DNA from: Desulfarculus sp.
GTDB taxonomy: Bacteria > Desulfobacterota > Desulfarculia > Desulfarculales > Desulfarculaceae
NCBI GenBank assembly: GCA_020216805.1
Contig: JAIWNN010000101.1
Coordinates: forward strand, 1 to 10,000
DNA: 10,000 bases
Direction of reading: 5' to 3'
Shown: piece after piece, positions 1 through 10,000 of the stretch
Numbering within the stretch: the stretch's first letter is position 1
How the letters are laid out: each line of letters starts with the position of its first letter
Notes under the pieces: model-generated
Database searches by the model: none
Told to the model about the DNA's origin: nothing
The model's input: the letters and a program-made list of their open reading frames with translations, nothing else
Position numbers and translations under genes: made by a program

Positions 1-89
1 TGCGCACCATCGCCACCCGCGCCCGGCGCCAAAACCTCGACCTGAAGGTCATGGACCTCACCCAACTCGTCACCATGGCCTTGGAATGA
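1..89 (+). CDS. C-terminal end of an unidentified protein (5'-truncated)
   Basis: An open frame enters from the left edge (first complete codon at position 3) and ends at TGA 87-89. It encodes 28 residues, beginning RTIATRARRQNLDLKVMD and ending VTMALE. The codons are GC-rich like the neighbours, which supports a real gene end. The fragment is basic and then hydrophobic and is too short to assign to a family, so no function is proposed. It runs in the same direction as the kinase-like gene that begins 64 bases downstream, and no terminator is evident in that gap, so the two could be co-transcribed. Confidence 0.5.
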   Translation, partial: RTIATRARRQNLDLKVMDLTQLVTMALE

Positions 90-153
90 TCAACATCAAG
101 GAACAATCATCAGCCGCGGGCCGTCGCGCGCCGGCCCGGAAAGGAAGGCAGCA

Positions 154-981
154 ATGGGCATCGTGACCATATCACGCCAGGTGGGCAGCTTCGGCGACGA
201 GATCGCCGCCCTGGCCGCCCGCAAGCTGGGCTATGAGCACATCGATCGCGAGCACGTCCACCGGCTGGCCCAAGGCTGCGACGACCAGTTCCGCCAGGCC
301 TGCCTGGCCTACGAGTCCGAGACCAAGCCCCACGGCTTCTTCGAGCGCCTGGCCTTCAGCAACCCCGCCCACGCGGCGCTCTTCGCCAGCCTCAACTATG
401 AGCTGGCCAAGAAGGGCGACGTGGTGATGGTGGGGCGAGGGGCCCAGGTGGTGCTGGGTCACCTGCCGGGGGTGCTCAAGGTGCGGGTGGTGGCCCCCAG
501 CGAGGTGCGGGTGGAGCGGGTGGCGCGGCGCATGAACCTATCCCTGGAGGACGCGCGGGAGTTCGTGCGCAAATTCGACCATGAACGCCGCGTCCTGTTG
601 GAGGCGGTCTTCGAGTACGATCTGTTCGACTGGAAAAACTTCGACCTGGTGATCAACACCGCCGCCCTGACCGTCGAGGACGCGGCCGACATGATCGTGC
701 TGGCGGCCGAGCGTCTGGCCCCTCGTTACGACCAGGCCAAGATGGCCGCGGTGCTGGGGAACCTGGCCTTCGCCAAACGGGTGGAGAGCGCGGTCAAGAA
801 GCAGGTGGAGACCCTCTACTCCCAGGACATCGTGGTCACCGCCGACGACCAGGGGGTGGTGGTGCTGCGCGGCCTGGTCTCCGACCCGCGCAGCAAGGCC
901 CTGGCCGGCGAGGCGGCGGCCAAGGTCCAGGGCGTCACGCGGGTGGTCAACAACCTCACCACCACCCAGTACAGCGTTTAG
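154..981 (+). CDS. Cytidylate kinase-like family protein with C-terminal BON domain
   Basis: The 275-residue protein opens with ITISRQVGSFGDEIAALAARK, the N-terminal signature of the cytidylate-kinase-like family (PF13189-type P-loop proteins). A second family hallmark, FDLVINTAALTVEDAADMI, lies near residues 167-185, and an arginine-rich lid-like stretch (RVERVARRMNLSLEDAREF) lies near 120-138. The family's substrate is not established; nucleotide phosphorylation is the usual assumption. Residues about 207-270 look like a BON domain: VVTADDQGVVVLRGLVSD followed by a helix and a VQGVTRVVNNL ending. BON domains are usually envelope-associated or ligand-binding modules, but I see no signal peptide here, so this one should be cytoplasmic. 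The P-loop-like segment is G-S-F-G where family members commonly have G-S-G-G, which may weaken nucleotide binding. The start is fixed by a purine-rich Shine-Dalgarno (GGAAAGGAAGG, 138-148) just upstream of ATG 154. The gene converges on alaS. Confidence 0.85.
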   Translation: MGIVTISRQVGSFGDEIAALAARKLGYEHIDREHVHRLAQGCDDQFRQACLAYESETKPHGFFERLAFSNPAHAALFASLNYELAKKGDVVMVGRGAQVVLGHLPGVLKVRVVAPSEVRVERVARRMNLSLEDAREFVRKFDHERRVLLEAVFEYDLFDWKNFDLVINTAALTVEDAADMIVLAAERLAPRYDQAKMAAVLGNLAFAKRVESAVKKQVETLYSQDIVVTADDQGVVVLRGLVSDPRSKALAGEAAAKVQGVTRVVNNLTTTQYSV

Positions 982-984
982 GCT

Positions 985-1047
985 TCTCGCGGCCAACCGA
1001 CCAAGGGCCGGGCCCTGCGCGGGGCACCGGCCCGGTTCGTGGCGAGA
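985..1047. terminator. GC-rich imperfect hairpin between convergent genes; possible bidirectional terminator
   Basis: The core pairs 1005-1015 with 1022-1033 (GGGCCGGGCCC against GGGC-A-CCGGCCC), giving 11 base pairs with one bulged A and a six-base loop. Outer arms continue imperfectly: 995-998 with 1034-1037 (AACC/GGTT) and 985-990 with 1042-1047 (TCTCGC/GCGAGA). It lies between the stop codons of the kinase-like gene (981) and alaS (1063), where a two-way terminator would be expected. There is no T-run on either strand, so it is not a canonical intrinsic terminator. It may block readthrough or protect 3' ends. Confidence 0.45.
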
Positions 1048-1062
1048 CTGGCGCGGGACGAA

Positions 1063-3714
<2,652 letters not shown>

Positions 3715-3732
3715 GTCACGATCTCCAACAGG

Positions 3733-4338
3733 TCATCTGGTGAGGTTGGCGACCAACGCGTTGAACTCTATTGTCGCCCAACAGGTTTTCGCCAACTGAT
3801 GCCCGATCTGCCTCCAGGTGGCGTTGATGATCTTCATTCCCTTTTCTTGCAGCTTCTCGACTGCCGGAACGTAGTCTCCGTCGCTGGAAACCAATATCGC
3901 GATGCTGTATGCGTTTTCCCAGGCTTGGGTGAACAGGTCGGTGACGATGGCCGCGTCCACGCCTTTCTCGGCGGACTTTTTGATCGCCACCCCGCAATGA
4001 GGACATTGCTCGATCAGGTTTTTACACTCACGGCAATGGATTGCATGAACCCGCGCTCGGCGTTGGCGCACCTTTACGTTAATCCCAGGCTGTCTGTCAA
4101 GGTAGGAGTCAAGCCAGTTGCGCAATCGTCCCCCATCGTCCGGTGGATCATTCACCGAGGCGTACACCCAGGTTCCCTCGTAACGATAATCGTCGACCCC
4201 GACTACTTTCATCGCTTCCTGGGTTAGTATCGCAGGAAGCCTGTCCCAGGCCAGGGGTGCTTTATCCGTCTGCTTGTTCCATTCCAACTGCAAGTTCCAA
4301 TAGTCAACAAATACTCGTATCTTCTCCGTCATCTCCAT
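3733..4338 (-). CDS. NYN-domain (PIN-like) putative ribonuclease with internal zinc-knuckle-like motif
   Basis: From ATG 4338 the protein has 201 residues. The start RVFVDYWNLQLEW (D12, N15), a middle acidic strand (KGVDAAIVTDL, D128 and D134) and SSDGDYVPAVEKLQEKGMKI (D153, D155) match the conserved acidic positions of NYN/LabA-like PIN-fold domains. These are predicted metal-dependent RNases or RNA-binding proteins; the actual substrate is unknown. Between the first and second acidic motifs sits C102-x2-C105-x6-C112-x2-C115, a compact zinc-ribbon or knuckle pattern that could contact nucleic acid. Alternative starts are GTG 4347 and ATG 4332. ATG 4338 is preferred because a G-rich stretch (GGGTGGGGGGC) sits just upstream and because ATG 4332 has GGAG directly abutting it with no spacing. 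Sampled 60-base lines are 53-55% G+C, against 75% in a sampled alaS line, suggesting a more recent acquisition. It lies between recA and alaS, where recX is often found. Confidence 0.88.
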   Translation of the reverse strand: MEMTEKIRVFVDYWNLQLEWNKQTDKAPLAWDRLPAILTQEAMKVVGVDDYRYEGTWVYASVNDPPDDGGRLRNWLDSYLDRQPGINVKVRQRRARVHAIHCRECKNLIEQCPHCGVAIKKSAEKGVDAAIVTDLFTQAWENAYSIAILVSSDGDYVPAVEKLQEKGMKIINATWRQIGHQLAKTCWATIEFNALVANLTR

Positions 4339-4354
4339 GCCCCCCACCCAGAAT

Positions 4355-4387
4355 GAAAAACAATAAGGGAAGCCTTACGGCTTCCCT
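4355..4387 (-). terminator. Intrinsic terminator upstream of the NYN gene; possible attenuator
   Basis: Read on the minus strand, AGGGAAGCC-GTAA-GGCTTCCCT forms a perfect nine-pair stem with a four-base loop, followed directly by TATTGTTTTTC. This is the best intrinsic terminator in the window. It lies 118 bases after the recA stop and only 17 bases before the NYN start codon. There is therefore no room for a promoter between it and NYN, and transcripts of NYN-alaS that start upstream must pass through it. It could be the recA terminator or a regulated leader terminator. Confidence 0.88.
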
Positions 4388-4398
4388 GGGCTGCAATA

Positions 4399-4420
4399 CG
4401 GCGATCCTAAAGGAACGCCG
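4399..4420 (-). promoter_or_regulatory. Leader hairpin with alternative pairing to the terminator arm (candidate antiterminator element)
   Basis: On the minus strand, CGGCG-T-TCC-TTTA-GGA-T-CGCCG forms a hairpin with five plus three pairs around one T-T mismatch. It ends 11 bases before the terminator stem. Its 5' arm (4420 to 4410, CGGCGTTCCTT) is also complementary to the 5' arm of the terminator (4387 to 4378, AGGGAAGCCG), with one bulged G and one wobble pair. Forming that second pairing would prevent the terminator stem. Two mutually exclusive folds are the defining feature of attenuators. No known riboswitch or T-box consensus is recognised in it. Confidence 0.45.
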
Positions 4421-4433
4421 GGGCTTGATGGTC

Positions 4434-4464
4434 ATAATATGACAACCGAAACACCTCATGTCAA
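4434..4464 (-). promoter_or_regulatory. Putative sigma-70 promoter for NYN-alaS
   Basis: The minus strand has a perfect -35 box TTGACA (4464-4459). Two -10 candidates follow: CATATT (4441-4436) at 17 bases or TATTAT (4439-4434) at 19 bases. The surrounding sequence is unusually AT-rich for this genome. Transcription would start near 4427 and give a leader of about 90 bases containing both leader hairpins before the NYN start codon. Confidence 0.6.
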
Positions 4465-4470
4465 GTTAAA

Positions 4471-4486
4471 GAGCCCAGCGGGTTCC
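4471..4486 (-). terminator. Weak candidate recA terminator
   Basis: On the minus strand GAACCC-GCT-GGGCTC forms a short stem with one mismatch and a three-base loop, followed by TTTAACTT. It lies 18 bases after the recA stop and just ahead of the NYN-alaS promoter, so it is well placed. The stem is weak and the T-run short. Confidence 0.3.
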
Positions 4487-4490
4487 AACC

Positions 4491-4503
4491 ACCTTAGTCC
4501 ACC

Positions 4504-4510
<7 letters not shown>
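4491..4510. repeat. Perfect 10-bp tandem duplication overlapping the recA stop codon
   Basis: ACCTTAGTCC occurs twice in a row (4491-4500 and 4501-4510). The right copy contains the recA stop codon (TAA on the minus strand, 4506-4504) and the last Asp codon. The left copy lies just outside the gene. It may come from replication slippage or be the scar of a rearrangement that brought in the NYN segment. No matching copy is seen near 3715-3735 at the other end of the NYN gene. Confidence 0.7.
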
Positions 4511-5562
<1,052 letters not shown>

Positions 5563-5619
5563 GAGTCTTCCTCTCGGGCTATGGGGAATGGCGGGGCGCG
5601 ATGGGCGCGATTCTCCGCC

Positions 5620-5650
5620 AGTATACACTAAACGCCAGGCGAGCGCGCAA
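5620..5650 (-). promoter_or_regulatory. Putative recA promoter
   Basis: The minus strand carries a good -10 box TATACT (5625-5620) in an AT-rich patch. A weak -35 candidate TTGCGC (5650-5645) lies 19 bases upstream of it. The predicted start near 5613 gives a leader of about 50 bases before the recA ATG. The thpR-recA gap of 109 bases is consistent with an independent promoter. The -35 match and spacing are poor, so activation or readthrough from cinA-thpR may matter. Confidence 0.45.
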
Positions 5651-5671
5651 CCCCGGCCGAGAGGCGGCCCC

Positions 5672-6265
5672 TCAAACCCCCGGCTCCACCGGTCCGCGCC
5701 CCAGATCCCAGGCCCAGCGCGGCCGGTAGATGGGGCCGGTCGGGGTCAGGGTGCTCTCCATCAGGCACACCCGCCGCGCCACGAACTCCGGCCCCCGCCA
5801 GCCGGCCAGGCTGGCCAGGGCCTGGGCCAGGGGGCGGGAGGGAGGGTTGGGCCCCCGGCCCCGCCGGGCGCGGCCCAGGGTCAGGTGGGCCTGGAAGCCC
5901 CGGGTTTCCCGCGCAAAACCCAGCCCGGCCAGGCCGTCTTCCATGGCCTGGGCCAACCCGGCCAGGGCCTCCACCTGGCCGGCCAGGCCCAGCCAGACCA
6001 CCGCGGGTCGGCCCACCCCGGGGAAGGCCCCGGCCCCGGCCAGGGCCAGCTCCAGGGCCGGCGCGGCGGCGCAGGCCGCCTCCAGGACGGTGGTGATCTC
6101 GCCCAGGCGGCCGGGGTCGGTCTCGCCCAGAAACTTCAGGGTGACGTGCAGGTTCTCCGGGGCCACCCATTTCACATCCGCGCCGGTGCGGCGCAGCTCG
6201 CGGATCACGGCCGTCGCGGCCGAGCGGGGCTCCTCGGGCAGCTCCAGGGCCGCGAACAGGCGCAT
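5672..6265 (-). CDS. thpR: RNA 2',3'-cyclic phosphodiesterase (2'-5' RNA ligase family)
   Basis: This 2H-phosphoesterase family protein, historically called LigT, opens 2',3'-cyclic phosphate RNA ends and can reversibly form 2'-5' linkages in vitro. The 197-residue length is typical. Both catalytic HxTx motifs are present: H40-V-T-L in [12 protein letters not shown] and H127-L-T-L in [12 protein letters not shown]. The start [14 protein letters not shown] is the usual family opening. ATG 6265-6263 overlaps the cinA stop by one base (TGATG on the minus strand), so translation is probably coupled to cinA and needs no separate Shine-Dalgarno. The same frame stays open far upstream inside cinA, but that extension is only a shadow. 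The gene sits between cinA and recA, a grouping seen in many bacteria, although no role in recombination is established for ThpR. Confidence 0.95.
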
Positions 6266-7497
6266 CAATGGCCTTCCAGATGCCGGCGCAAGAGGTCCAG
6301 GGCGTTCTCGGCCGCCTGAAGCTTGACCATCTGGCGGTCGCCGGCGAAGCGCTTGTGCTCGGTGAGCACTCCGCCGGGATAAGCCAGCCCGAACCAGACC
6401 GTGCCCACCGGCTTTTCCGGGCTGCCGCCCTCGGGCCCGGCGATGCCGGTGACCGCCAGCGCCAGGTCCGCGCCCGCCCGCTCCCGCGCGCCGGCGGCCA
6501 TCTCGGCCGCGCACTGGGAGCTGACCGCGCCGTGGCTGGCCAGGGTCGCGGCCGCCACGCCCAATAGCTCCTGCTTGGCTGGGTTGGAATAGACCACGTA
6601 GCCGCGCAGGAAGTAGGCCGAGGAGCCGGCCACCTCGGTGATGCGGTGGCCGATCAGCCCGCCGGTGCAGGACTCGGCCAGGGCCAGGGTCAGGCCGGCG
6701 GCCTTGAGCAGCTCGCCCACCCGGGCCTCCAAGGGCTGGGACCCGCGCACCACCACCCAGTCCGCCAGGCGCTCCAGGCACTGGGCCTCCAGCTCCGCCA
6801 CCCGTTCCTGGGCCAGTTCCGGGGTCTCGGCCCGGGCCGAGAGGGCCAGGATCACCTCCGGGAAGACCGGATAGTAGCCCAGGGAGGCTCCGGGCACGCC
6901 GTTGACCAGGCCGGCCAGGCGCCGGCCCACCTCGCTTTCGCCCAGGCCGAAGAGCCGGATGGTGGCGCTGGCCAGATGGCCGCTGCCAAAGCGCGCCCCC
7001 AGCTCCGGGGCCACCCGGCGTTCGATGATGCGCTGGAACTCCGGCGGCACCCCGGGCAGGAAATACAATGGCTTGCCGCCGGCGACCGTGATGGCGAAAC
7101 CGGCGCTGCGCGGATCCAGGGGCTCGGCTCCTTCCGGCATCAAGGCCATGCGCCGGATCTCGGGGGTGAGCGGGCGGCCCAGACTGGCGAGCAGGGCCTC
7201 CAGTTCGGCCAGCTTTTGAGGGTGTTCGATCAGGGGCAGGCCCAGGGCCCGGGCGGCGGCGGCGGCGGTGAGGTCGTCCTCGGTGGTGCCCAGACCGCCG
7301 CTGATCACCAGCCAGTCGCATCTCGCCAGGGCCTGGCGCAGCACCCGCACGATTTCATCCAGATCGTCGCCAAGATAGCTGAATCCGGCCAGGCCCAGGC
7401 CCAGGGGCCATAGCCGGCCGGCGGCGTAGCGGGCGTTGCGGTCGCTGATCCGACCGCTGATGAGCTCGTCGCCGATGCAGAGGATCTCCCCGCGCAT
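6265..7497 (-). CDS. cinA: CinA: ADP-ribose pyrophosphatase/nicotinamide-nucleotide amidohydrolase
   Basis: CinA-family proteins combine an N-terminal MoaB/MogA-like (COG1058) domain with a C-terminal PncC deamidase domain that converts NMN to NaMN in pyridine-nucleotide recycling. In naturally competent Gram-positives cinA is co-transcribed with recA. The full-length 410-residue protein shows GDELISGRISDRNA (9-22) and ISGGLGTTEDDLT (65-77) in the N-domain, where family members commonly have GGLGPT, and YFLPGVPPEF (145-154). The C-domain has AESCTGGLIGHRITE (274-288) with the catalytic-serine motif ESCTGG, and TGIAGPEGG (350-358). The start is ATG 7497, with GGAGG (7513-7509) 11 bases upstream, a slightly long spacing. 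It is the first gene of the minus-strand cluster, has its own promoter, and is translationally linked to thpR. Confidence 0.96.
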   Translation of the reverse strand: MRGEILCIGDELISGRISDRNARYAAGRLWPLGLGLAGFSYLGDDLDEIVRVLRQALARCDWLVISGGLGTTEDDLTAAAAARALGLPLIEHPQKLAELEALLASLGRPLTPEIRRMALMPEGAEPLDPRSAGFAITVAGGKPLYFLPGVPPEFQRIIERRVAPELGARFGSGHLASATIRLFGLGESEVGRRLAGLVNGVPGASLGYYPVFPEVILALSARAETPELAQERVAELEAQCLERLADWVVVRGSQPLEARVGELLKAAGLTLALAESCTGGLIGHRITEVAGSSAYFLRGYVVYSNPAKQELLGVAAATLASHGAVSSQCAAEMAAGARERAGADLALAVTGIAGPEGGSPEKPVGTVWFGLAYPGGVLTEHKRFAGDRQMVKLQAAENALDLLRRHLEGH

Positions 7498-7571
7498 GTC
7501 CCGGGCCGCCTCCGTCCGCCAATGCCGTTGGGTGACAACAGGTTAGAAAGCCAGCGAAAAGCCAACGACGC

Positions 7572-7600
7572 AGGCTATCAGTCGGGGTGTATTTTGTCAA
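7572..7600 (-). promoter_or_regulatory. Putative sigma-70 promoter for cinA-thpR
   Basis: On the minus strand a perfect TTGACA (7600-7595) is separated by exactly 17 bases from TAGCCT (7577-7572). Transcription would begin near 7565 and give a leader of about 67 bases before cinA. This is one of the two best promoter matches in the window, and it diverges from the kinase promoter 25 bases away. Confidence 0.65.
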
Positions 7601-7625
7601 CTTCATCGAAGGCTTTCGGCCGTCC

Positions 7626-7654
7626 TTGACCCCGGGGCGCATGGCGGCTATCCT
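7626..7654 (+). promoter_or_regulatory. Putative sigma-70 promoter for the histidine kinase gene
   Basis: TTGACC (7626-7631) and TATCCT (7649-7654) are spaced by 17 bases, a good housekeeping promoter match. Transcription would start near 7661, about 54 bases before the kinase ATG. The rest of the 217-base cinA-kinase gap holds the divergent cinA promoter and no further gene. Confidence 0.6.
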
Positions 7655-7714
7655 CAAGACACCCCGCGTGTTCGCCCTGGCCTTCGTCCCCCCGCGCCGA
7701 GAGGTGCGAGCCAG

Positions 7715-9127
7715 ATGCCCGAAACCGAGCGCCACACCGGTTCCAACGAAGGCAGGCATCGCGCCGTCCTGCGCGGCCTGGCGCAGCACCTTATCCAGGC
7801 CGGCAGCCTGCCCCAGGCCCTGATCCAGTCTCTGGCCGAGTTGGAAACCGGCCTGGGCCTGGCCCCCAGCCGGGTCTACGCCCTGGGCCGGGGCGGTGGT
7901 CTGCGCCTGCTGGCCAGCCACGGCCTGCCCCCGGAGATGGTCGCCCAGGTGGAACGGGTGGAGATGGGCCAGGGCTTCACCGGCCTGGCCGCCCAGCGCC
8001 GCCGGATGGTGGTGATGCCGGTGGACCACCTGGACGATCCCCAGCGCCGCAAGCTGTTGCGGGAGATGGGGGCCAAGGCGGTCTGCGCCCTGCCGCTGAT
8101 CCTGCACGGCGAGCTGGTGGGGGTGCTCAACGTGGCCACCCGGCTGCGGGTGGGTTTCACCCCCGACGAGCAAGGCTTTTTGGACGTGCTGGCCGGGCTG
8201 TTGGCCGCGGCGGTGGCGGCCTGGACCCGGAGCCAGGCCCTCGCCCGGGCCCAAGAGGATCTGGCGGCGCTCAAGGCCGAGATCGACCTCAAGGTGGCCG
8301 AGCAGGTGGGGGAGATCAAGGCCGAGCTCTCCAACCTGAGCATGGCCAACCAAAGGCTCAAGGAGACCTGGCGGCTGGTGATGCAGGCCGAGCGCACCGC
8401 GGCGGTGGCCCGCTTCACCAGCGCCCTGGCCCACGAGCTGCGCAACCCGTTGATGGTCATCGGCGGCTTCGCCAAACGCCTGGCCGGAGCCCTGTGCCAG
8501 GACGATCCGCGCTGCAACTATGTCAAGGTCATCGTGCAGGAGGTTCAGCAACTGGAGCAGTTGTTGAGCCAGATCTTCAAGCTCAACCGCGAGCGCGACC
8601 TGGATTTCGCCGAGGTGGAGGCCGACGAGATGATGCGCCAGAGCTGGCGGCGGGGGGTGACCCAGGCCGGAGCCCCGGCCCGCGAACCGGTCTGGGATCT
8701 GGCTCCGGGGCTGCCGTCCCTGGTCACCGATCCCGACCTTTTGATCCGGGCCTTGGGCAACCTGGTGCAGAACGCCCTGGAGGCCACCCACGACCGGGGC
8801 CGGGTTTACCTGTCCACCGGCCTGGACGATCAAGGCCGGGTGGTCTTCACGGTGGCCGACGACGGACCCGGCATCCCGGATCAGGAGCGCGCCCGCGTCT
8901 TCGACCCGCTCTACACCACCAAGGAGTACGGGGTGGGCCTGGGCCTGCCCTATTGTCGCGATGTGGTGCTGCTGTTGGGCGGGGAGCTGAGGGTGGACGA
9001 GCGCCCCGGCGGCGGAGCCCGGTTCACGGTCCACCTGCCCACCACCCCGCCGGACACCCGGCAGCAACCCGCGGGCCCGGACCCGACCGAGGCGGAGGGC
9101 AACCACCATGCGCTGGTGCGACCTTAG
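7715..9127 (+). CDS. GAF-domain sensor histidine kinase (cytoplasmic, orphan)
   Basis: The 470-residue protein is a two-component sensor kinase that autophosphorylates on histidine and passes the phosphate to a response regulator. A GAF-like sensor domain covers about 20-165 (GQGFTGLAAQRRRMVVMPV, then GAKAVCALPLILHGELVGVL). A coiled-coil signalling helix follows at about 172-228. The HisKA H-box is ALAHELRNPLMVIGGF with phospho-acceptor H240. The HATPase domain shows the N-box GNLVQNALEAT (348-358), G1 ADDGPGIP (381-388) and FDPLYTTKEYGVGLGLP (396-412) as the F/G2 region. There are no transmembrane segments or signal peptide, so it should sense a cytoplasmic cue; the ligand cannot be inferred. 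ATG 7715 has AGAGGTG (7700-7706) upstream. No response regulator gene is nearby. The 3' end overlaps the following small gene by 20 bases, indicating an operon. Confidence 0.93.
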   Translation: MPETERHTGSNEGRHRAVLRGLAQHLIQAGSLPQALIQSLAELETGLGLAPSRVYALGRGGGLRLLASHGLPPEMVAQVERVEMGQGFTGLAAQRRRMVVMPVDHLDDPQRRKLLREMGAKAVCALPLILHGELVGVLNVATRLRVGFTPDEQGFLDVLAGLLAAAVAAWTRSQALARAQEDLAALKAEIDLKVAEQVGEIKAELSNLSMANQRLKETWRLVMQAERTAAVARFTSALAHELRNPLMVIGGFAKRLAGALCQDDPRCNYVKVIVQEVQQLEQLLSQIFKLNRERDLDFAEVEADEMMRQSWRRGVTQAGAPAREPVWDLAPGLPSLVTDPDLLIRALGNLVQNALEATHDRGRVYLSTGLDDQGRVVFTVADDGPGIPDQERARVFDPLYTTKEYGVGLGLPYCRDVVLLLGGELRVDERPGGGARFTVHLPTTPPDTRQQPAGPDPTEAEGNHHALVRP

Positions 9128-9290
9128 CTGCCCCGAGGCCAGCTGGCCCCGGGACGAGGCGGTGGACGGCAGCGGCTCCTGCCGCACCTTCGTGGCCCTG
9201 TGGTGCGCCCAGTTGGGCCGCCTGGTGGCCAAGAACGCCCCCTGCCAGGCCCCACCCGCGCCAGCCCCGCCAGAGGACAAGCCCGCCTGA
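9108..9290 (+). CDS. Small conserved-looking cysteine-rich protein (60 aa), function unknown
   Basis: This 60-residue ORF starts at ATG 9108 inside the last 20 bases of the kinase gene, in a different frame. A near-ideal Shine-Dalgarno GGAGGG (9094-9099) lies eight bases upstream, which strongly supports translation. The protein has five cysteines (C4, C8, C25, C33, C46) in the motifs WCDLSC, DGSGSCRTFVALWC and LVAKNAPC, followed by a proline-rich tail (residues 48-60). The spaced cysteines suggest metal or Fe-S binding, or a structural zinc site. The pattern resembles short uncharacterised proteins I associate with sulfate- and metal-reducing deltaproteobacteria, but that is recollection and no search was run. 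Coupling to the histidine kinase suggests a shared function or simply co-expression. No signal peptide or membrane helix is visible. Confidence 0.75.
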   Translation: MRWCDLSCPEASWPRDEAVDGSGSCRTFVALWCAQLGRLVAKNAPCQAPPAPAPPEDKPA

Positions 9291-9300
9291 GCGGACCGGA

Positions 9301-9337
9301 CCGCGCCCCGCCGGTCACGCAGTCCGGCGAGGCGCGG
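9301..9337. terminator. Strong GC-rich hairpin between convergent genes; possible bidirectional terminator
   Basis: Positions 9301-9314 pair with 9324-9337 (CCGCGCC-C-CGCCGG against CCGGCG-A-GGCGCGG), giving 13 base pairs with a single C-A mismatch and a nine-base loop. It lies between the stops of the small cysteine protein (9290) and the carbonic anhydrase (9356). Neither flank has a T-run, so it is not a textbook intrinsic terminator. Its strength and position still suggest transcript-end formation for both genes. Confidence 0.5.
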
Positions 9338-9355
9338 CGAGCCCACCAATTTGGA

Positions 9356-10000
9356 TTACTTGCCCGTGGCGAAGGCCTCCACGGCCCGGTCCGGCGCGGC
9401 CTCGGCCTGGGCCAGGAGCTTGGCCGGCCGGGCCTGGTCCAGCACCTTCACCTGACCGCTGGTCAGGTCGTAGATCGCCCCCACCGCCATGATCTTGCCA
9501 GACTTGACCAGCTCGCGGGTGGCGGGGCTGGCCTTGAAGATGCTCAAGAGCGCCTGCCAGACGTTCTCCTCCACCGCCGCCGGCAACAGCGCCGCGCAAC
9601 ACAGGTCGGGATGGTCGGCCTTGGCCCTTTTCACCGCCGGCACGATGGGCGCCACCAGGGGCGGGATGTTGCGCTCCCACTTGGCGTGGCGGCCCTCCAC
9701 CTCGTTGATCACCGCCGTCACCGCCCCGCAGCCGCTGTGGCCCAGGACCATCAACAGCGGGGTGTGGACATGGGCCAGGCCATACTCGATGGAGCCGATC
9801 TCGTCGGTCTGGGCCACGTTGCCCGCCACCCGGATCACGAACAGGTCCATCACTCCCACGTCGAAAAGCAGCTCCACCGGGACCCGGGAGTCGGAGCAGG
9901 AGAGCACCGTGGCCAGGGCGTAGTCGCCCTGGTTGACGCTGGCGGCCAGGTTCACCCGGGCCAGGTCGCGATGGGGGGCCTGGGGCTGGTCGGCCACGAA
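9356..10000 (-). CDS. Beta-class carbonic anhydrase (N-terminus outside window)
   Basis: The enzyme interconverts CO2 and bicarbonate with a zinc ion. The visible 214 residues end at TAA 9358-9356. Family motifs are the zinc-ligand and Asp-Arg dyad SCSDSRVPVE (C35, D37, R39 counted from the first visible residue) and the second ligand pair H-x2-C in VLGHSGCGAVTAV. LFDVGVMDLFVIRVAGN and GSIEYGLAHVHTPLLMVLGH are also typical. The frame stays open to the window edge with Phe-Val-Ala-Asp-Gln-Pro followed by PHRDLAR, which matches the usual RFVxxxPxHPHR region near the family's N-terminus. GTG 9997 is therefore an internal valine codon and not the start; the true start and any signal peptide lie beyond position 10000. 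The C-terminal half has GKIMAVGAIYDLTSGQVKVL, the common beta-CA ending strand. It converges on the histidine kinase pair. Confidence 0.95.
   Translation of the reverse strand, partial: FVADQPQAPHRDLARVNLAASVNQGDYALATVLSCSDSRVPVELLFDVGVMDLFVIRVAGNVAQTDEIGSIEYGLAHVHTPLLMVLGHSGCGAVTAVINEVEGRHAKWERNIPPLVAPIVPAVKRAKADHPDLCCAALLPAAVEENVWQALLSIFKASPATRELVKSGKIMAVGAIYDLTSGQVKVLDQARPAKLLAQAEAAPDRAVEAFATGK

Follow-up and report, generated by a model that had tools for sequence, protein, structure and literature searches.

A covarying two-hairpin RNA adjoining NYN-family nuclease genes, with the layout of a candidate RNA antitoxin

The window analysed here is a 10,000-nucleotide stretch of a Desulfarculus sp. 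contig (JAIWNN010000101.1, positions 1 to 10,000); its minus strand carries recA and alaS and, between them, a gene for an NYN-domain protein preceded by a predicted small RNA (Table 1). The RNA is built of two repeats of the unit AUUANNNCCC plus hairpin, closed by a U-tract, and adjoins the gene of the NYN-family nuclease; its start is placed at about A4429 from the spacing to the -10 box. The perfect TTGACA promoter, the first hairpin and the nine-pair terminator with its T-run, reported in the initial annotation, were all recovered by scanning, and promoter, hairpin and terminator do form one unit ahead of the NYN gene, as they had been grouped there. Promoter-like sites number two in the whole window, against a mean of 0.4 in shuffled sequence; terminator-like sites number four where 4.5 are expected, so that there is no excess by count alone. 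For the NYN gene, comparison with homologues favors ATG 4332 over ATG 4338 as the start; the protein queries used in searches (3733-4335 or 3736-4335) begin one codon before this likely start.

Table 1. Features of the recA-alaS region in the window.
Feature	Position	Strand	Remarks
recA	4504 to ~5562	minus	
Segment replacing the sister's recA-alaS gap	3716..4504	minus	by comparison with sister locus L008
Predicted promoter of the small RNA	TTGACA 4464-4459; CATATT 4441-4436	minus	spacer 17; 10/12 consensus matches
Predicted small RNA	4356..4429	minus	~74 nt, ending in the U-tract
Module 1 linker AUCAAGCCC	4421..4429	minus	family form CAUUANNNCCC
Module 1 hairpin	4399..4420	minus	helix 1 of the RNA family
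Module 2 linker UAUUGCAGCCC	4388..4398	minus	similar to the module 1 linker
Module 2 hairpin (terminator stem)	4366..4387	minus	9 pairs
Terminator U-tract UAUUGUUUUU	4356..4365	minus	
NYN-domain gene	3733..4332	minus	199 aa from ATG 4332; ATG 4338 possible
alaS	1063-3714	minus	18 bp downstream of the NYN gene

The segment between recA and alaS looks foreign. The nearest sister locus (L008) is 94.6% identical to the window through recA up to 4505 and 95.5% identical through alaS from 3715, yet its 164-bp gap yields no significant alignment with the 789 bp found here; the third-position GC content (GC3) of the NYN gene is 0.67, against 0.97 in recA and 0.96 in alaS. Of 60 genomes searched (that of the window, five congeners and 54 others, many of them incomplete), none but the window's own contained an NYN orthologue, five having weak matches (E 4e-7 to 9e-4). 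Relatives that carry recA and alaS on one locus without an NYN match number 27. The leader DNA matches only itself in its own genome and nothing among 62 other members of the class. A perfect 10-bp tandem repeat (ggactaaggt twice, 4510-4491) runs across the recA stop codon, on the left border of the segment not shared with the sister, and is possibly an insertion or recombination scar; the sister's gap, for its part, has a AAAGGACGA motif ahead of alaS, and this gap is missing from the window. The window shows how a foreign module can end up between the core genes recA and alaS.

Since recA or alaS lies near the NYN gene in the window only, among 98 NYN loci whose flanking stretches were examined, and since the recA-alaS relatives have no NYN match, the linkage to alaS is particular to the window genome. 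Joint control of NYN and alaS, which the initial annotation had proposed as a possible role of the leader, is therefore unsupported, alaS being incidental. Its companion observation, that no other promoter for alaS is evident, was borne out by a consensus scan of 3714-4350, which found none inside the NYN gene; alaS may thus depend on readthrough of the RNA terminator.

In isolation, the 74-nt RNA (4429-4356) folds at -31.5 kcal/mol with a z-score of -4.9, and the minus-strand segment 4430-4335, folded as a check, gives a z-score of -4.1; in each case none of 200 shuffled sequences is equally stable. The leader had been thought to alternate between two exclusive folds, the 5' arm of the first hairpin pairing either within that hairpin or with the 5' arm of the terminator. 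Such pairing is possible in the window sequence, where the duplex of the two arms reaches -12.2 kcal/mol, and it is also strong in the window's relatives L039 (-14.3) and L038 (-9.7). However, a fold constrained to it attains only -21.0 kcal/mol, about 10 kcal/mol worse than the native one, and it is not conserved: across 74 distinct homologous RNAs, the arms of one locus pair with a mean of -5.18, those swapped between loci with -5.58, and 985 of 1000 between-locus swaps pair the arms at least as well as their own partners. A conserved two-state attenuator is thereby rejected, and a species-specific attenuator of the NYN-alaS transcript, to which the closeness of alaS would lend itself, is very improbable, given the preference for the native fold and the uniqueness of the recA-alaS setting.

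The RNA was followed through loci of NYN relatives, comprising 80 of the 115 found in species genomes and seven from viral contigs. A simple scan, run without a control, places a terminator-like hairpin within 150 nt upstream of the NYN gene in 51 of 91 loci. The consensus form reads AUUANNNCCC, hairpin, (N)AUUANNNCCC, a second hairpin C(A/G)GGG...CCC(C/U)G, then UAUU and the U-rich tail. At E<=0.01, a first covariance model (R1), built from 15 seed sequences including the window, recovers 60 full-length matches; they fall in 59 of 88 sources, and 44 of the 73 sources that supplied no seed are among these. A second (R2), trained on 54 sequences from 53 sources, again with the window, gives 77 full-length matches in 76 of the 88, including 23 of the 35 sources outside its training set. 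Some of the 88 sources form pairs that are identical or nearly so (L079/L081, L096/L126, L108/L109). The remaining R2 matches are five short ones antisense to the palindromic stem (E 0.16-0.47). With filters off, L122, L089, L065, L060 and the plasmid locus L145 are also reached at E<=0.01, and L097 weakly (E 0.088). The window RNA, which took part in the training of both models, scores 62.5 bits with R1 and 56.8 bits with R2; its genome, 55% complete, yields no other R2 match at E<=0.001 among the 150 of 1319 candidates that were scored. No R2 match occurs in 32 control loci (the 27 recA-alaS relatives and five weak NYN relatives), and all three further NYN loci searched alongside these controls have one. 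RNA-bearing NYN genes occur in records titled as 12 phyla, carried on chromosomes, small plasmids and viral contigs. Two identical NYN proteins (L079 and L081) come from records labelled Desulfobacteraceae and Anaerolineaceae, which would reflect either binning contamination or very recent transfer.

The hairpins of this family covary. In an alignment of 54 RNAs, 94.8% of cells are paired and 13 of the 15 pairs show changes on both sides (all six modelled pairs of helix 1, with 87.8% of cells paired, and six of eight in helix 2, with 100%); the covariation score reaches 0.591, whereas shuffling gives 0.169 and none of 500 shuffles comes as high. The alignment was fitted to the model and contains related rows, both of which favor the structure, but pairing falls to 39-50% when the partner is shifted by one to three columns, and this control, together with the size of the effect, makes fitting bias unlikely as the full explanation. 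The best-conserved letters sit in the linkers, such as the C before each hairpin: in 77 RNAs, alignment column 4 of the module 1 linker is A in 97% and column 13 is C in 99%, the module 2 linker has its last C in all 77, with A in 83% and U in 92%, and the U-rich tail is common to all. Across 70 loci, RNA identity follows NYN identity with r 0.615, a value that none of 2000 permutations reaches; the correlation leaves out L048, L088, the second L117 copy and rows at least 95% identical.

Covariation and the specificity of the models rule out chance hairpins. They bear equally on the reading, raised in part by the initial annotation, that the terminator simply ends the recA mRNA, with the remainder due to chance. 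The predicted RNA begins about 116 nt past the recA stop codon and could also stop recA readthrough; moreover, three congeners (L009, L010, L011) have, by eye, GC-rich inverted repeats in their recA-alaS gaps, possible recA terminators. Yet the sister's gap shows no relation to this segment, and the covarying RNA family accompanies NYN genes without a neighboring recA, so that a recA terminator is rejected as the full explanation and has a negligible probability.

As the initial annotation had judged, neither a T-box nor another described leader fits: at gathering score, Rfam 15 has no match in the window or in 20 related loci. At E<=5, the terminator hairpin of the window leader draws the only two matches, P24 at 20.5 of 100 bits, which lies on the opposite strand, and BTnc231 at 16 of 80.4 bits; identity with the P24 sRNA is rejected, the match covering the terminator stem only and lying far under its cutoff. 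What emerges is a structured RNA family, without an Rfam 15 match in the window and these 20 loci, that is tied to one nuclease family.

How tightly it is tied can be read from whole-genome surveys. R2 was run on four sets of 395, 198, 311 and 296 genomes, 1200 in total, the large sets being searched with stricter filters that miss weak matches; 11 genomes have a match, and in 10 of these the NYN gene adjoins the RNA. The eleventh (G025/L132) is rejected as an RNA without NYN, being a partial GC-rich match with unmatched linkers and no NYN gene. NYN itself was searched in the first two sets, the 311- and 296-genome sets being searched with R2 alone: it occurs in five of the 395 genomes, three with the RNA by survey and the other two (L119, L120) by direct search of the locus, and in three of the 198, two with the RNA and the third being L152, whose residues look intact by eye and in which no RNA was found. 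Twelve genomes chosen for their NYN loci, some overlapping other sets, were searched with up to 150 candidates scored per genome; at E<=0.01, a single match turns up in each of 11, and none in the genome of L097. The association of RNA and NYN is near-exclusive.

A sigma70-like promoter with at least nine of 12 consensus matches lies upstream of 37 of the 77 RNAs, against 4.1 expected from shuffles, and by this rule 40 RNAs have none. For 28 of these 37, a gap of 3-5 nt separates the end of the -10 box from model position 1 (3 nt in the window), for which reason the start of the RNA is placed at the conserved CAUUA. Six loci have the promoter 36-39 nt further upstream, about the length of one module, as if they carried one additional module; in some leader regions, extra modules are visible by eye. 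The RNA is thus conserved in many loci as a set of covarying hairpins and repeated linkers with promoter and terminator at fixed places. This arrangement predicts a discrete short transcript running from its own promoter to its own terminator, readthrough of which would set the level of NYN.

Sense-upstream placement accounts for 77 of 82 mapped RNA matches, at distances of -1 to 95 nt from the gene and in one case 346. The exceptions are instructive. In an Aeromonas hydrophila plasmid (L147) and a dimeric plasmid of Cobetia amphilecti (L148, two copies), the RNA occupies the strand opposite to NYN; it is some 22 nt away from the annotated start of the gene and points away from it, with a TATAAT readable by eye before each copy. 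In a viral contig (L122), the RNA is likewise divergent. The strict promoter scan finds none in L147 or L122. In L110, an RNA with its own promoter faces the 3' end of the NYN gene (which is preceded there by two transposase-like frames, helix-turn-helix and DDE_3). A further locus, L075, probably also has a divergent RNA: its R2 score is weak (10.5 bits, E 5.1), but both hairpins fold (z -4.6) and there is a TTGACG-17-TAGGAT promoter whose end lies 4 nt upstream of the model start, the spacing usual in the family. The fifth exception among the 82 is a second RNA copy in L117, part of a 188-nt duplication (91%), with no NYN match behind it. Near the RNA-NYN locus of the same record lie three RES-domain frames (2858-3694, 5634-6272 and 6184-6732; E 4e-12, 8e-16 and 1.5e-10), and ahead of one of them is a frame that weakly matches an Xre-like helix-turn-helix; judged by these domain matches, this is a cluster of toxin-antitoxin-type genes.

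These placements bear on whether the RNA is no more than a cis-acting leader, its terminator setting NYN expression (with or without feedback by NYN) and the RNA having no separate role. The prevalence of the sense-upstream arrangement, with a terminator before the gene, is what such a leader would produce. However, the divergent loci L147, L148 and L122 and the convergent L110 keep both hairpins, and there the RNA is no mRNA leader; RNA and gene stay together even where no shared transcript is possible. With the variable distance to the gene and the lack of conservation of the proposed switch pairing, a leader role alone is improbable, and the RNA most likely acts in trans.

The window protein matches Pfam NYN (PF01936, E 1.1e-12) and no other Pfam domain; its AlphaFold2 model has a mean pLDDT of 94.1, and no solved structure matches the NYN profile at E<=0.01. 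Among 93 homologues, D10 is kept in 91, E122 in 88, K123 in 92, D126 in 88, D151 in 92 and D153 in 88, and C100, C103, C110 and C113, a set we call zinc-ribbon-like, in 92-93. By its domain and conserved acidic residues, the protein belongs to the NYN family, with RNase activity predicted; E122, D126, D151 and D153 are presumably catalytic, as judged from the NYN/PIN literature. In a tree of the 93 proteins (made by a quick method, with RNA labels that predate the re-examination of L075), the rows labelled as lacking the RNA are L068, L069, L072, L077, L075, L087 (at a contig end) and L128 (a distant NYN on a long branch). The first four form one branch (SH-aLRT 100), and an unfiltered search at E<=10 yields no RNA match in any of them. 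This clade alone has E122 changed to S, T or C, D126 to T and D153 to E, all other rows that cover these positions keeping E122, D126, D151 and D153 (L065 ends short there). It retains the four cysteines and is perhaps a repurposed, inactive branch. The pattern ties the RNA to an active nuclease, though it amounts to one evolutionary event and is as compatible with a cofactor as with an inhibitor.

Occurrence is patchy and extends to plasmids and viral contigs. Relatives of the NYN query P0052 at E<=1e-5 are found in five of 72,556 plasmid records, so that plasmid carriage is rare, and phage records have no match to the window NYN. The plasmids are small (6.3-12.4 kb), and the RNA is present on four of the five by the default R2 search and on the fifth at E 0.0097 with filters off. 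The Cobetia record (L148, 8550 bp) has the same gene set twice and is therefore a dimer, of a 4.3-kb unit, or an assembly duplicate; its other annotated genes serve replication and mobilisation. In the PADLOC library of defence models, all 30 aligned NYN homologues match the candidate HEC-09, and 29 also NYN (LabA-like); at E<=0.001 the only other model is DruB, once. The HEC-09 match is partial (window residues 102-166 of 200, profile 82-146 of 203), and no RNA is named in the library output.

These observations, the near-exclusive association, the several opposite-strand loci and the plasmid- and virus-borne occurrence among them, are best accommodated by an RNA antitoxin paired with an NYN RNase toxin and built like the type III and AbiF-RCd22 systems, a reading to which we assign a probability of roughly 0.6. 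A strong promoter would drive plentiful synthesis of a small RNA, made up of two or at times three linker-hairpin units and closed by its own terminator; the NYN ribonuclease would be made by occasional readthrough or, in divergent loci, from a separate promoter. The RNA would act in trans on the nuclease, most likely by binding it as an antitoxin that silences it; were the RNA lost, or the element carrying the pair, the nuclease would be released to cleave cellular or phage RNA. The transcription, binding, inhibition, toxicity and target proposed here are inferred, as is any role in plasmid maintenance or phage defence.

The association, the opposite-strand loci and the changed clade would fit equally well if the RNA were instead a working part of an NYN ribonucleoprotein, an activator, scaffold or guide, for example in an RNA-dependent defence effector, and the partial match of the 30 aligned proteins to a candidate defence model points the same way. 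Against this, the order promoter, RNA, terminator, gene would give an excess of RNA over protein, as in antitoxin systems; L117 keeps an RNA copy without NYN; no spacer-like guide segment is seen by eye; and very small plasmids suit an addiction pair. A cofactor is the second most likely reading, though unlikely on balance; were it true, the pair would represent a new RNA-dependent RNase. If the RNA restrains the nuclease, RNA antitoxins would have been co-opted for one more family of ribonucleases, unrelated to the others. More tentatively, and short of even odds, the NYN proteins with the four-cysteine insert could be a phylum-spanning class of RNA-controlled RNases, a further nuclease fold, besides ToxN and HEPN, that came independently under a repeat-hairpin RNA, with the RNA as the sensor: a phage or stress that strips or cuts it would release an immune RNase.

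The pair is conserved and was not found described in the searchable literature. Mainly non-subscription sources, a scope outside which the 2017 Weinberg RNA survey falls, yielded, among the titles and abstract openings listed, no account of an NYN protein with an RNA partner, and no paper pairing NYN with type III toxin-antitoxin systems; the main text of DefensePredictor contains no NYN. Among known systems, AvcID likewise has an RNA antitoxin and is called type III although its toxin is not an RNase; in the text available, it differs in that the toxin is a deoxycytidylate deaminase and that, by the prediction of its authors, RNA and gene have no terminator between them (PMC10511110). Closer in layout is RCd22-abiF, described in the accessible part of its report as one promoter, a short RNA with two motif copies, a terminator and the toxin gene, RCd22 neutralising AbiF in cis and in trans (PMC12373285). 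As far as described there, the two share a housekeeping-sigma promoter, a two-motif RNA, a Rho-independent terminator before a nuclease gene, and a prophage or mobile setting; they differ in the protein (HEPN Abi_2 there, NYN here) and in the hairpin-linker units, the last of which here doubles as the terminator. Membership in the AbiF/abiF RNA family is rejected, the protein having an NYN domain only and the abiF motif (RF03085) being absent from window 4300-4520 at E<=5 and from 20 loci at gathering score.

Type III systems, in the available account, have upstream RNA repeats and a terminator before an endoribonuclease gene, on plasmids and chromosomes (PMC5086642). ToxIN, CptIN and TenpIN, so described, resemble the present pair in the upstream repetitive RNA, the intervening terminator and the plasmid and chromosomal carriage, and are unlike it in the NYN-annotated protein, the two or three units with variable stems and the divergent position of some RNAs. 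A repetitive promoter-proximal RNA upstream of the candidate toxin gene is present here (two modules, and seemingly three in six loci), as is a predicted Rho-independent terminator between RNA and gene (4387-4356 in the window); the protein matches PF01936 only in Pfam, and none of the 30 homologues matches ToxN, CptN or TenpN in PADLOC at E<=0.001. Since the layout agrees and the protein families do not, the RNA-NYN pair would work like a type III pair while standing apart from ToxIN, CptIN and TenpIN.
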